DNA from: Polychytrium aggregatum
Lineage: Eukaryota > Chytridiomycota > Chytridiomycetes > Polychytriales
Length of the DNA: 64,000 nt
Direction: 5' to 3'
Assembly (NCBI RefSeq): GCF_025602895.1
Contig: NW_026516206.1
Location: 744,001-808,000, forward strand
Shown here: positions 733 through 6,922 of the stretch, piece by piece
Layout: each line of letters begins with the position of its first letter
Position numbering within the stretch: position 1 is the stretch's first letter
Translations under genes and position numbers: made by a program
The notes under the pieces: model-generated
Seen by the model: the letters and a program-made list of their open reading frames with translations, nothing else
Databases searched by the model: none
What the model was told of the DNA's origin: nothing

Positions 733-3700
733 ATGCTGTCTCGTCGCTTCTTCGTCGCCGGCTGCGCCCTGCTCTGGCTCGTGCTGGGCCTGGCCCACGC
801 CGCCAAGAACATTTATTCCACCGAGATCACCCCCGCCATCGACCTGAGCAAGTTTGCTTTTTACGAGGATCGTTTCACCAATGACGGCACGCCGTCGCCC
901 ATGAAGCTGTTCTGGAGCATCGAAAACCAAACCACCCTCCATGGCGTCATAACCTTACAACCGACGATTGTGTCTCCTGGCCAGCCTGTGACAAATGCTT
1001 GGGTCGGCTTTGGACTGGGCGAGTCCATGCTCACGGCTGACCTGTTCTTGGTCTGGGCCAACAGCAGTGGCCCCGTCATCTTGGTCGAAGCCACGTCCGG
1101 CGGGCAGTACGGACCGGTGGTAGGTGCAGGTGCTTTGGCAACTTGCTGCAGTTTCGGCAGGGAGTCGACCTGTAAGGCTGAGGCAGGTCTGATCAGACTC
1201 TGGACAGACCTACCTCTGTGGCGGTCCCAAACCAGGCCAGTTTGTCGGCGATCTCTGCCAAAGTCCGAGCATCCATCTCTGCCAAAGTCCTGAGCGTCCA
1301 TCTCTGCCAGCAACTCACCCACCTGCTTGCATTCCACCCACTTCTGCACAGGTCAAGCTCAACCCGGGTGTGATGACGGTTCTCTCGAGCTCGCAAGCCA
1401 ACAACACTCTTATGCTGGAGTTTACTCGGCCACTCCTGCCCAGCGACCCTCACAGAATGGCAATCACCGGCTCGACGCAGCAGCCCACCATCTGGTAGGT
1501 TGCCTGCCACCTCGCCATGCACTGATCTACATGGAGCTGACACTCACGCTCTCCACTTTGCCGGTCAACTTGATGGCTGCGCTTTGCATCTCCTCTCGAT
1601 CCTCTCGATCCTCTCGATCCCCAAAATCACCATCCAAGGGCGTACAACCTCCAGCCGGACTCCAACAGCCCCGGTGGCTGGATGTTCACTCACGGCATCA
1701 ATCGTGGCAGTGTTGATATCAACTTCATGACCGGTGACGCCAACGTTGTCCCCTATGGACTCCCACGCACATCCAAGTTTATTCATGGTGCCTCCATGAC
1801 TTTTGGCTATATGATTATCTACCCGGCGGGCGCCTTTATCGGCCGCTACTGCCGGTCGATCGACTCATGGCTCCAGTACCACGTACTCTGCCAGAGTATC
1901 TCAACCGTCATCAGCGTGGCCGTGGCCATCTACCTCGCCACGAGCTTTACGTTCCCCTGGTGGACTCTGACCCATCGCCACACCATCCTCGGCATCACGC
2001 TCATCACCTTAGTGACCTTCCAGGGCTTCACGGGCTTGTTACACCGTCTCTCCATGACGAATGAGCGTCTCGCTTCGTTCAAGAAACCTCTCCAGGTCTA
2101 CCATCGCTATAGCGGCTGGGCTATCATCCTTAGCGCAACGGTCCAGGTTGGCTTCGGCATCCAAATCCTGTGGCCGCTTGAGGTCGCGTCGTCGGGCCAT
2201 GGACAGCTCGCCTTGTTCTATCTCCCCTGGGCCATATATGGGCTTATCATTGTCTTCTGGATCGTCCTCTTCACGGGGGCAGAGATTATCTATCGCACGA
2301 AGTTCGTCAATCGCGACAAGAAGCTCTCAAAGTCGGCTCCTGCCACTGCCGAATCCAGCCAAGACATCAAGAACCCGCTGCTGTTCTCCAACAACGTCAC
2401 AGATGGAAGCGAGTATCCCGAGTGGACCTGGCAGGAGATTGACCAGCGCGTCCAACGTGGCGAGCTACTGGTCGTGGCCGACGGCACGTACATCTACGAT
2501 GCCTCCAAGTGGCTCTCGTCGCATCCTGGTGGACAGCTCGTCCTGCAGTCCGTCGCCGGTACAGACATCACCAACGACTATTTCCAGTAAGTAGCCTCGG
2601 CAAGGCGCGTTGCAGCGGTGGTCGGGTTTCCACATAGGTTGCACCCAACTCGACTGGCGGGCAAAGCACTGAAATTGCGGATCGAGCGTCCAGTTCCAGC
2701 AATCTTTCCGCTCTCTCAATGCGATAGTCTTGCTGACAGTACCCGCTCGGTTTTTCCAGTGAGGCGGGCTTCGACACAGAGACCTTCATTGCCAACAATG
2801 CCATTGTCGATCGTGCCATGTCCAACATCACGCGCTCACTGCCTTCTGAGCTGAGGCGTGATTTCGTCCAAAATCCAGCTCTCCAGTCTTCCATAATGAG
2901 AGAGCGCATCATCAGCTATCGCCCGTCCGTGATGAGCGTTTCGCACATGCAAATGCTCACCGAAGCCGAATATCACAGCGTCTTCCGCGCCCGCCGCCCG
3001 CACGTCCACACGCGACTCGCCATTCAGAAGCTCTCGTCGATGCTGGTTGCTACGGTCAAGAACAGCGATTATGAGGTGTCGAATCGCGATCTTGCCCAAG
3101 ACCCGTACGAGTACCGGCGATACGCCGTCGTCAGCAACCTGTGTGAAACAACTCTGACGACAGGCGAACCCGTCTTCAGGATGAAGTTCTCGCAGCTGTA
3201 CCCTCTATACAGCCGTTTCCGAGAGGCCGAGCCATTCCTCCCAGGACAAACAGTCGAAATCCAGATCCGAATCGACGGTCGCCCCCAGACTTGCTCGTTC
3301 GCCCCCGTGAATGGTAACACGTCGGTCTTTGAGATCCTGGTGCCCTCGGGCGAAAGCAAGTTCTTGAAAGTCTTGACCTCCCAGATCGCAGGAGAGCGCC
3401 AGGTCAAGATCCGTGGACCCTTCGGAGCACCTCTCGTCAGCCCCAGAGCCCCGATCAATGCCCTGGGTGGATATTGCTTCGACTCGATGATCATGGTATG
3501 CGAAAACAAGGAATTTTCGCTGGCCCTCCAGCTCCTGAGCTACCTGTTTCTGCCGAAATATGTGAACCTGATGGTAAGTGATGTGCGAAAGCGTAACTTG
3601 TTGTGGCAAGTTGGGAAGAGGCGGCAAGGTGTCTTTGGCATGTGTACTATGAAGCATGTTGCTCATCCGCACCTCTGTTTGCGCAGGTCAACACCCCCTA

Positions 3701-4247
3701 CGTCGCCCAAAACTACGACCAGCTCACCATCCAGCCGGGCGACTTGATTCTTGTGCACGAGCACTACTACGACGGCTGGGCCAGAGGTGCGCTGGTCTCG
3801 ACGGGCCAGATCGGCTACTTCCCACTGGGCGTCACCAACCCGTACTGCGGCAACATCGTTCGTCTGATCATTCTCCATGATGCCAACAACGCCAATGACG
3901 TCTATGGTGCCAACATCTTGGAGGGCGCTCAGTGCGCCTACCCCGGCAATATCTCGGTGATCCACCGCTTCGAATCGGACCGTCCGCCAATGTCCGCCCA
4001 GCAGCTGGATGTCATTGCTCCTGGACAGAAGATCTGGGGCAAGCCCCGAGGCTCGATCATTCGCAGCGTGCTCGATAACCCCACCAACGGATTCTCTCGC
4101 GCCGGAATCCCGCCCAGCGACGAGTACCACAGCCAACGCATCTTCGTCTGTGGCGGCCCTGAGCTGGACAGATTGGTGCGAGTCACTGCCGCTACTCCGG
4201 AGGTTGGCATTCCCCAAACCGATATTCTTACCGTCGTAAGCCGATAG
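733..4247 (+). CDS. DOMON-cytochrome b561-cytochrome b5-FAD/NAD oxidoreductase with internal SH3 domain
   Basis: Five exons, 733-1119, 1352-1494, 1639-2586, 2760-3573 and 3687-4247, give 950 aa. The first 24 residues form a signal peptide (cleavage after GLAHAA). A DOMON domain follows (about 40-175), then a multi-helix cytochrome b561 membrane region (about 220-390) and a cytochrome b5 domain (about 437-510) with the haem-ligand motif HPGG. An FAD-binding reductase lobe (about 600-730) comes next. The NAD lobe starts near 735 but is interrupted at about 773-813 by a clear SH3 domain (core IQPGDLILV, DGWARG, GYFPLG). It resumes to end with the NAD-lobe motif FVCGGPELDRL. The usual GGTGIAP-type nucleotide loop is degenerate (VCENKEFSLALQ). 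The second b5 haem histidine is completed across intron 3 (CA|T). By family the protein should pass electrons between cytosolic nucleotide, haems and an extracellular or luminal acceptor. Substrate unknown. All junctions are GT-AG and frame-consistent. Confidence 0.85.
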
Positions 4248-4803: not shown

Positions 4804-6333
4804 TCACGCCGAAACAGGTTTGCCGCTGAAGCTGCAGACCCGGATCTGCGTTGCCGGGTGACGCTGCTTTAACTTGGCCAACGATGCTGGATCCAGACCA
4901 CAGGCACCGGTCATAACAAGGGTATCGAGGACTGGGTGGGCAGCAAGGAAGGACGAGAATGTGTCGTCCTGGCGGGCCCAGGTCGCAAACCGGAACTCGA
5001 GCGACTGGAGCTTCTTGAGCGCATGCGGCGCGAGGCGGTCAAAGTCCTGGAGGCAAATAGGACCAATCCAGCAGAGCTGTTGCAGATTGGGGCACTGCTT
5101 CGCAACGGCCAGGAAGCGTGCGGTGTTTGGGAGCGGGGCTTGGAGCCGCCTGAGGTTGGGCATGAACTGCAGGACGGCGACCAGAGTGCCCGAGACAACC
5201 TTGGCCTCGTGCAGAACCAGCTCGAGCAGGTTGCGACCAAGGTCGGGCAGCGAGCGATGATGGGCCAAGAGACTCGTAAAGTCAAAGACAGATGGATCGG
5301 TATCTTCAAAGGCAAGGCTCTTGAGTTTGTGCAGCTGGTGTGGGCGGGTCTGGTAGTGGACGAGCGGATCTCGTCGAGAACCGTCAGGTTGGATCTCAAA
5401 GGTGTTTCGGAAATCGACTCGAGTGAGCTCGTTGCAGGCATCGAGGATTTTGGCAACGGCACCAGGATCGAGAGTCCGATAGCGCATGGTGAGTGACCGC
5501 AGGCGCGTTGCCGACTGGGAAATCTGCTCCACCAAGGGAGAATGAACATGATGCGGGCTGGAGATGTCCAAGACCCGAAGCCGTGTTCCTGCGAGCTTGA
5601 TCAGCCTGGCGAGCACAGCATCTCCAAGAACCGGGGAAAATGCGACTTCCAAAATTTGCAGACGCAGCTGGGACAAGGTCGGCTGGCCATCAGAGGGCAG
5701 GAGCCGCTGCACAGAGTCGGAGCTTGGATTCGACGGTTGGCCTGCAAGTGCCGTGGGATCGAGCGAGTCCAGAAAAGCACCCCACAGCTGGTCGCCAAAG
5801 GTCCGAGCCTCGACATGGCGCATCGTCAGGACCCTCAGTTGCGGGAGTAGCATTATGACGGCAGAAAGGAGCTCCGCGGTCAACGAGCACTGCACGAGCG
5901 AGAGCGAGGTGATCGAATGGAGGGTGGTCTGGCTGAAGATGGATGACGACGAGGGCAGCAACAGCGGCGCTGAGCTTCGAGCCGCAGTGTCGTCGCAGAG
6001 ATTCAGGGATCGAATGCGGTGGGATGGGAAGCGCGCCAGGAACTGCTCGATGGAGGAGCAGGAGCCTTGGAGGTGTCTCAGATGATGCAAATGGATACTC
6101 AGCAGCGCCGGAAAGGTCGGTAGAGCTGACTGAGAGTTCGGAACGGCGTCACCTTCCAAAAGGGAAGATGACGCCAGAGAAACGGTGCCCCACAGGCCCG
6201 AAATGAAGCCGACATACCAGGCGCGGTTGACTTGAACCAGGGGATAGAAGAACCGGGGGGAATCGGGCAGAAATTCAGCGATATGGTAGAATACTTCGAG
6301 TGGCAAATTGCTTGAGCGAGACGCGGTAGCCAT
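4804..6333 (-). CDS. F-box protein with leucine-rich C-terminal region
   Basis: Single exon of 509 aa. The ATG at 6333 is chosen because it directly precedes the F-box; the same frame stays open to 6405 but without an upstream ATG. Residues about 8-50 match an F-box (LPLEVFYHIAEFLPDSP, then NRAWY). The rest is leucine-rich with repeated LRxLxLxxC/V-type units (for example LRVLDISSP, LQQLCWIGP, LQSLEFRFA), as in F-box/LRR proteins. Such proteins are substrate receptors of SCF (Skp1-Cul1-F-box) ubiquitin ligases; the substrate cannot be told from sequence. The gene converges with the redox gene on its left and faces the inverted-repeat arm upstream. Confidence 0.75.
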   Translation of the reverse strand: MATASRSSNLPLEVFYHIAEFLPDSPRFFYPLVQVNRAWYVGFISGLWGTVSLASSSLLEGDAVPNSQSALPTFPALLSIHLHHLRHLQGSCSSIEQFLARFPSHRIRSLNLCDDTAARSSAPLLLPSSSSIFSQTTLHSITSLSLVQCSLTAELLSAVIMLLPQLRVLTMRHVEARTFGDQLWGAFLDSLDPTALAGQPSNPSSDSVQRLLPSDGQPTLSQLRLQILEVAFSPVLGDAVLARLIKLAGTRLRVLDISSPHHVHSPLVEQISQSATRLRSLTMRYRTLDPGAVAKILDACNELTRVDFRNTFEIQPDGSRRDPLVHYQTRPHQLHKLKSLAFEDTDPSVFDFTSLLAHHRSLPDLGRNLLELVLHEAKVVSGTLVAVLQFMPNLRRLQAPLPNTARFLAVAKQCPNLQQLCWIGPICLQDFDRLAPHALKKLQSLEFRFATWARQDDTFSSFLAAHPVLDTLVMTGACGLDPASLAKLKQRHPATQIRVCSFSGKPVSA

Positions 6334-6922
6334 TCGGAGGAGATAGCTTCGAGGCAGATGGGCGGCAAGGAAGGTTGGTCGCGAACAGTTGGAGAGTGAG
6401 GCCACAGCAGGACGGATGAGGAGACGGGAGGCAAACGCTTTCGTGCGGCGGATTGCTTTGGGGGAAGGCGACGGCGATGTGTGCTTGGATGATCCGGGGG
6501 ACTGGGCGGGTCGACGGATTCGCTGGCTTGAGAATCGGATTCAAACCACGAAGCAAGCGATATGTATGTAATGGGATGCGCAATGTGTGCGATATTTGAA
6601 GACGAGATGCTGGTGGATGATGAAGCGGAGGAAGCAACGGCGGATCGGCGGCTCGGACGATGGGAGCCGCGGTCTGGCAGCGGTTCGCTGGAGGCGGGCA
6701 AGCAGCATGACCACCGGGATTTGAATCGGAATCCGAGCCGACCGGAGGAGATCCCCACGTGAGGGGTGCTGGCAGGGTTTTTGGGGTGTTGATGGTGGTG
6801 TGGATGTGTGGGGCGCAGGATGGCGCCGAGGAGGTTGCGCAGGGTCAAGCGACGATTGCGGCAGCCGGGTGACCTGCGGCGGCGTGGCAGGCAGAAGATC
6901 GGGGAGAATGAGGGTGTGCCGT
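6334..6922. other. Upstream region of the F-box gene
   Basis: No gene recognised. Open frames here are long-codon shadows on both strands without domains. It ends at the edge of the left inverted-repeat arm. Confidence 0.45.

Follow-up and report, generated by a model that had tools for sequence, protein, structure and literature searches.

NADPH oxidases such as NOX2 are activated by separate, external subunits that carry SH3 domains, and in two NOX proteins of Naegleria gruberi an SH3 domain is reported to lie within the NADPH-binding domain itself, for which an unknown partner with a proline-rich region has been suggested (Zhang et al. 2013, PMC3591440). Here we describe a gene of Polychytrium aggregatum (phylum Chytridiomycota) in which an SH3 domain is built into the reductase lobe, as it is in the large and old fungal family to which the gene belongs. 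The gene lies in a stretch of 64,000 nucleotides, hereafter the window, which is part of a 64.7-Mb assembly, and its product joins a DOMON domain, a b561-type core, a cytochrome b5-like domain and a two-lobed reductase in one chain. The explanation that we favour, to which we give a probability of roughly 0.55, is that the proteins of this family are electron exporters with built-in SH3 control, and that the window copy is a pseudo-reductase subunit.

An SH3 domain inside the NAD lobe

The original prediction, made from the letters of the DNA, held that exon 4 of this gene closes with the first strand-helix unit of the NAD lobe and that exon 5 opens with an SH3 domain, and both statements are borne out: exon 4 ends at 3573, exon 5 spans 3687-4247, and the segments named there (LTIQPGDLILV, DGWARG, GYFPLG and, at the end of the lobe, FVCGGPELDRL) are all found in the translation. 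The junction falls after 764.0 codons, that is, in phase 0 as had been proposed, and the SH3 domain starts at residue 765. Its identity is far above chance: PF00018 (SH3_1) matches residues 768-810 of the whole protein (E 2.9e-8; 33.6 bits against a cut-off of 22.9) and reaches E 3.8e-9 in the open frame around exon 5 (3597-4244), the segment matches SH3 chains of the PDB (E 3.5e-6), and the AlphaFold model contains a block with pLDDT of 95-97 over residues 761-820, which makes a confident SH3 fold. The fold expected for residues 773-813 is thus confirmed, but those bounds were slightly too narrow, the domain extending over residues ~765-814. On either side of it, residues ~605-947 of the model superpose on NADH-cytochrome b5 reductase as a two-lobe fold, and these data support an insertion in the loop that leads from helix A of the NAD lobe to strand B. 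The features of the gene, all on the plus strand, are:

733..4247, plus strand: whole gene, five exons (733-1119, 1352-1494, 1639-2586, 2760-3573, 3687-4247), 950 aa
850..1723, plus strand: extracellular DOMON domain, aa ~40-205, with two introns inside; bounds from the strands of the AlphaFold model
1766..2305, plus strand: b561-type transmembrane core, aa ~220-399, seen as helices in the AlphaFold model
2426..2796, plus strand: cytochrome b5-like domain, aa ~440-505, with intron 2587-2759 inside; PF00173 above cut-off, E 1.5e-9
3097..3429, plus strand: FAD lobe of the reductase, aa ~606-716; model superposes on b5 reductase
3292..3306, plus strand: eroded flavin motif CSFAP; R[YF]Y[TS]P in most relatives
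3478..3573, plus strand: first strand and helix A of the NAD lobe, at the end of exon 4
3496..3522, plus strand: eroded nucleotide loop VCENKEFSL; family consensus xxGG[ST]GITP
3574..3686, plus strand: phase-0 intron at the 5' edge of the SH3 domain
3687..3836, plus strand: inserted SH3 domain, aa 765-814 (PF00018, PDB SH3 matches, AlphaFold pLDDT)
3858..4235, plus strand: remainder of the NAD lobe, aa 822-947, including the FVCGGPELDRL (CGP) strand; superposes on b5 reductase to residue 947

The spliced translation of the five exons is identical to the public protein BJ171DRAFT_489558 of P. aggregatum (P0001 in our numbering), every intron is GT-AG, and the frame is open over all 950 aa. Exon 5 belongs to this gene, given this identity and the recurrence of its domain order in relatives from many genera. 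Among Pfam families, DOMON (PF03351) is above cut-off at aa 87-179 (E 2.6e-9), while at E up to 1 the window protein matched neither FAD_binding_6 (PF00970) nor an NAD-binding family nor b561 (PF03188), so that of the profiles proposed for its C-terminal part only that of SH3 was recovered. PF00970 was matched in all nine relatives scanned, and PF03188 is above cut-off in P0008 and P0012, which align with the window protein. The Cys-Gly strand at the C-terminus is kept (C919, G920), the Cys being present in 86 of the 93 family proteins that are complete through the lobe.

Spread, age and gene structure of the family

Three homologue searches, two of which scored 7,995 and 7,996 candidates sharing most words and limited by length, yielded at least 128 family proteins (P0001-P0128), clearly apart in score from 15 general reductases (P0129-P0143, at most 59 bits) that are excluded from our counts. 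The counts given here refer to the 93 proteins complete through the lobe, the window protein included, and leave out the 35 incomplete ones; two of the alignments comprise 54 and 49 chosen rows. The architecture sought in other chytrids occurs across many genera: an SH3 segment of at least 45 aa is found in 91 of the 93, the two exceptions being P0114 (44 aa) and P0082 (21 aa), in which most of the domain is gone. The latter we take for a gap in the gene model, since both ends of the SH3 domain are kept. Named members we recognise as zoosporic fungi; the others are metagenome proteins. The idea that the window gene alone had gained the domain was dropped, its relatives carrying the same domain order: an SH3 domain in the reductase is ordinary within this family, and it is the family itself that is unusual.

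Sorochytrium and Blastocladiella belong to the Blastocladiomycota, and the precomputed Pfam lists show no SH3 domain in the four members from this phylum. A family SH3 model trained without them recognises it in all four (E 5e-10, 2.5e-9, 5.1e-9 and 4.8e-5), with none of 200 shuffled sequences listed at E 10 as a control, and the Pfam SH3 signal is weak and below cut-off in three of the four. The insertion therefore predates the split between Chytridiomycota and Blastocladiomycota, and it can be dated only as older than that, because an SH3-free outgroup of the same architecture was sought and none was found among the complete members apart from P0082.

At least four family loci were found in the genome of P. 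aggregatum by a search that scored the best candidates, the window gene and:

C334:260935-264292: P0003, with a second copy on C52 that is probably the other haplotype
C57:307020-309913: P0057
C13:83523-85246 (examined within C13:81500-87300): a further paralogue

The C13 paralogue has a hydrophobic segment at its N-terminus, HPEM for HPGG in the b5-like domain, an intact RRYYTP, an eroded nucleotide loop and the SH3 domain; neither DOMON nor b561 was matched in it. In three of the four loci the SH3 domain is preceded at its 5' edge by a phase-0 intron, namely in the window gene, P0003 and, by inference from a donor and several in-phase acceptors among which the one giving equal length was chosen, C13; P0057 lacks it. 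None of the three fully modelled loci (window gene, P0003, P0057) has an intron at the 3' edge. Exon shuffling, which had been suggested from the exon boundary, is consequently possible and unproven: the 5' intron fits, but the SH3 domain has no matching 3' intron and does not form a symmetric 0-0 module. The incomplete proteins touch on the same boundary. Twenty-eight of these 35 reach the NAD loop, and 17 of the 28 stop matching directly after column 764, as judged by eye. All 17 gene calls continue with Val, the residue that an in-frame GT donor would give; Val is also the commonest residue at that column (56/93), which makes the comparison an indirect one, and the figure of 0.602^17 = 1.8e-4 for 17 Val is not a proper probability, as the sequences are related. 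The remaining 11 comprise P0030 and P0032 with the whole SH3 domain, eight with part of it and P0088, which is garbled.

Some further observations concern the family or its surroundings. Between the b5-like domain and the FAD lobe (window residues 560-592) runs a stretch of about RARRTHVHTRLAIxKLSxLLVGEL, among the most conserved of the family, in which R571 and H576 are invariant in two alignments. Public records call P0024, P0067, P0098, P0127 and P0128 S-methyl-5-thioribose-1-phosphate isomerase, probably an annotation error that has spread. In Boothiomyces sp. JEL0866, P0062, P0097 and P0002 have neighbouring locus tags (HDV06_006495, 006498, 006499), their contigs are of the same length, and P0002 shows two FAD and two SH3 matches; the locus is likely a tandem duplication. 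Elsewhere in the window, a stop-free frame of 578 codons on the minus strand (4804-6540) may encode a leucine-rich F-box-type protein.

Cofactor sites, haem domains and the possible role of the SH3 domain

Both cofactor sites of the window copy are eroded. Enzymes of the b5 reductase and ferredoxin-NADP reductase (FNR) superfamily bind flavin with the motif RxY[ST], which is also visible in the alignment of P0008; the window copy reads CSFAP, with Arg replaced by Cys, Tyr by Phe and Thr/Ser by Ala. The Arg is kept in 87 of the 93 proteins, and Phe stands for Tyr in nine other members. In place of the nucleotide loop GxGxxP we find NKEFSL, within the stretch CENKEFSL, so that the degenerate GGTGIAP site of the original prediction is real. 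Both Gly of the loop occur in 88/93, together with the Pro in 78/93, and the first Gly in 92/93, the window copy being the sole exception. Eight members have a residue other than R or K in place of the flavin Arg or lack a Gly of GxG: P0001, P0003, P0018, P0031, P0038, P0101, P0102 and P0113. Lists of members with one or the other site lost depend on the rule applied, a looser rule giving 7 (FAD) and 8 (NAD) members and a strict column rule 5 and 5, with a union of 8. P0001 and P0113 have lost both sites, P0113 through the Arg and one Gly; the Arg and both Gly are lost together in the window copy only. In a tree of 61 of the 128 proteins chosen for spread, built by a short search with SH-aLRT and without the NAD lobe and SH3 domain, and in which many deep forks are unresolved, the eight occupy at least four places (P0001 with P0003, P0018 with P0031, P0101 with P0102, and P0113), with that of P0038, on a very long branch, uncertain.

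All eight keep the SH3 domain, at 61.7-80.9 bits with a model trained without them; the median of the other members is 78 bits, a figure inflated by their being the training set. At the level of sequence, the eroded motifs support a loss of NAD(P)H binding in the window copy, which is probably a pseudo-reductase. The original prediction had coupled this loss with a gain of the SH3 domain, but gain and loss are separate events: the SH3 domain is present in 91/93, Blastocladiomycota included, while 88/93 keep both loop Gly.

In the haem domains, the window copy has four candidate b561 haem histidines (H226, H258, H291, H332), which are found in 81, 63, 81 and 86 of the 93 proteins. The DOMON domain of cellobiose dehydrogenase holds its haem by a Met and a His, and candidates for both are kept, M99 (Met in 77/93) and H195 (His in 80/93). 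Of the two axial histidines of cytochrome b5, the b5-like domain has the first (HPGG), and Phe 497 takes the place of the second. With these b561 and DOMON candidates and the HPGG of b5 in place, the haem relay of the window copy could work even if its reductase cannot; passage of electrons through the b5-like domain is doubtful, because Phe or Tyr occupies the column of the second histidine in 90/93, and this domain may bind haem differently or not at all.

As for the SH3 domain, its mean pairwise identity across the family is 41.7%, compared with 41.3% and 27.1% for the parts of the NAD lobe before and after it, 58.5% for the b5-like domain, 47.5% for the FAD lobe, 31.8% for b561 and 26.9% for DOMON. 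The polyproline groove comprises, in Src numbering, Y90, Y92, W118, Y131, P133 and Y136. The window copy has an incomplete groove: it keeps Y769, W795, Y808 and P810 and has Thr 767 and Val 813 at the other two positions. Across the family an aromatic residue at Y92 (84/93), W118 (92/93) and P133 (89/93) are retained, and an aromatic residue is mostly lost at Y90 (residue 767; 1/93), Y131 (808; 9/93) and Y136 (813; 2/93). The acids of the RT loop persist (Asp in 85/93, Glu in 91/93), and the patch HYxDGWAxGxN, specific to this family, is highly conserved (H790 in 77/93, D793 in 89/93, G794 and W795 in 92/93, N800 in 79/93); all of it but the Asn is retained by the window copy. The conserved surface thus reads as a contact surface other than the textbook PxxP groove. 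The docking module foreseen by the original prediction remains plausible, although the family as a whole lacks half of the usual polyproline groove; we give docking or regulation the edge over packing within the chain, because W118, P133 and the RT-loop acids persist.

From these data we infer a route and direction of electron flow, a regulatory role and a partner, as follows. Family members would probably carry electrons outwards across the membrane, from NAD(P)H to the FAD of a reductase on the cytosolic side, by or past the b5-like domain and the b561 haems to the DOMON haem, and on to an outside acceptor. The SH3 domain would have entered the helix A-strand B loop of the NAD lobe before the two phyla separated; in Rossmann-like folds this loop lies on an edge remote from the nucleotide, which could allow the lobe to remain active despite the insertion, and 88/93 members keep the GxG loop. 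Most likely the SH3 domain, as an integral contact site, would recruit or sense a partner in the cytosol and so control the reductase through a partly non-standard surface. The window copy would then most likely be a pseudo-reductase subunit that regulates an intact reductase, for instance the paralogue BJ171DRAFT_71382, or is fed by it, because both of its cofactor sites are eroded but it has kept the SH3 domain and the candidate haem ligands.

Several observations weigh against this explanation. The b5-like domain and the FAD lobe are more conserved than the SH3 domain, which in 92 and 91 of the 93 members has no aromatic residue at two groove Tyr positions; the window SH3 departs at two strongly conserved residues, with Gln for E776 (Glu in 91/93) and Leu for N800. 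Column 258 of b561 is Lys in 21/93, the PF03188 profile is unmatched in the window copy itself, and the second b5 histidine is replaced nearly family-wide. The end branch of the window copy measures 0.99 against 0.53 in its sister, as in a decaying gene. Concerning the insertion itself, the PF00175 match of P0002 (positions 2-53) runs into the first SH3 domain and blurs a clean split of the lobe; P0002 apparently consists of two gene copies in one model.

Four alternatives have to be set against it. That a wrong gene prediction had fused exon 5 or the SH3 domain to the reductase might be read from the 17 gene calls that stop matching at exactly this place; this is in effect refuted, with next to no probability left, since 91/93 proteins have the same domain order and P0057 carries FAD lobe, SH3 domain and NAD lobe within a single uninterrupted exon. 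A contender with a real, if minority, chance is that the SH3 domain is an internal structural or autoinhibitory piece that packs on its own reductase or b5-like domain and steers domain movements. Half of the polyproline groove is gone family-wide and the HYxDGWAxGxN patch is strongly conserved, as this would lead one to expect, but Y92, W118, P133 and the RT-loop acids are kept, and a purely structural module does not need them; as to the packing itself, pTM is below 0.6 in both models.

The other two alternatives concern the window copy and its eroded sites. We consider it unlikely that it is a redundant paralogue in decay, without present function, whose cofactor sites were eroded under relaxed selection. 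The long end branch fits such a decay, though several members with intact motifs have longer branches, and so do the loss of motifs nearly fixed in the family, the SH3 score, lowest of the eight motif-losing members, and the identity to the sister, which is 27 and 26% in the two parts of the NAD lobe against 42-65% in six other segments. However, the frame and splice sites are intact over all five exons, the protein retains all four histidines of b561, both DOMON candidates (Met and His), HPGG and the core of the SH3 domain, and cofactor-site loss with a retained SH3 domain is also seen in other lineages. Still less probable, in our judgement, is that the sites are altered yet working, with flavin held without the Arg, for example, or with a donor other than NAD(P)H: the fold is predicted intact with high confidence, the flavin Tyr is replaced by a Phe that nine other members share, and the Cys near the C-terminus remains, but the combined loss of the Arg and both Gly is unique to the window copy among the 93, with P0113 as the only near parallel. 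A pseudo-reductase subunit in a family of SH3-controlled exporters accordingly remains the reading we prefer.

Comparison with known systems

Six of the 128 members, from three genera, start with an animal haem peroxidase (Pfam; E 3e-84 to 3.9e-109): P0041 and P0042 of Nowakowskiella, P0068 of Rhizophlyctis, and P0076, P0078 and P0079 of Sorochytrium. The peroxidase is followed, where Pfam recognises each, by DOMON, b561 or DUF2427, b5, FAD and SH3 domains, and with the tree rooted on Blastocladiomycota the fusions of Chytridiomycota included in it (P0041, P0068) branch near the base. These proteins point to a non-NOX extracellular redox chemistry in zoosporic fungi, and the repeated loss of cofactor sites with a retained SH3 domain would be a way to separate docking from catalysis. 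As a tentative proposal, which we rate as rather unlikely in this full form, zoosporic fungi may have evolved a b561-based counterpart of NOX and DUOX: an exporter with an SH3 domain in its lobe, in some cases fused to an extracellular haem peroxidase, together with paralogues, the window copy among them, that have become dedicated pseudo-reductases by giving up NAD(P)H and flavin and act as SH3-bearing partners in haem relay or regulation. If so, a regulatory SH3 module inside the catalytic lobe would replace the separate subunit of the NOX type. Among the papers listed on SH3-bearing reductases, DOMON-b561 architectures and peroxidase fusions, none describes the family in its title or the opening of its abstract.

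The family resembles four described systems and differs from each of them: (i) DUOX joins a peroxidase to a NOX core, and six family members likewise have an N-terminal haem peroxidase ahead of a membrane reductase. Their core is b561/DOMON and not NOX, and the window copy is without a peroxidase match in Pfam. (ii) NADH-cytochrome b5 reductase (PDB 9v69, 7rom, 2eix) shares the fold of residues ~605-947 around the SH3 domain, and P0008 aligns by sequence with the Physarum and yeast enzymes through the flavin motif and GGTGITP. The PDB chains (243-272 residues), however, are without an SH3 domain, whereas the window copy is without their flavin Arg and GxG loop. (iii) CYBDOM-type proteins have, to our knowledge, no fused b5, reductase or SH3 domain. 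What they share with the family is the DOMON and b561 core, and they have been linked to extracellular iron (PMC10784544, PMC10784552). (iv) The ferric-reductase transmembrane domain of NADPH oxidases was matched neither in the window copy nor in nine relatives (Pfam, E up to 1), several of which match PF03188 instead. The nearest precedent is nonetheless provided by the NOX proteins of N. gruberi, in which a PF00018 SH3 domain is likewise reported (PMC3591440) in the NADPH-binding domain at the C-terminus of a membrane-spanning haem reductase, but one with a ferric-reductase transmembrane domain, where the family described here has a b561-type core with DOMON and b5-like domains.
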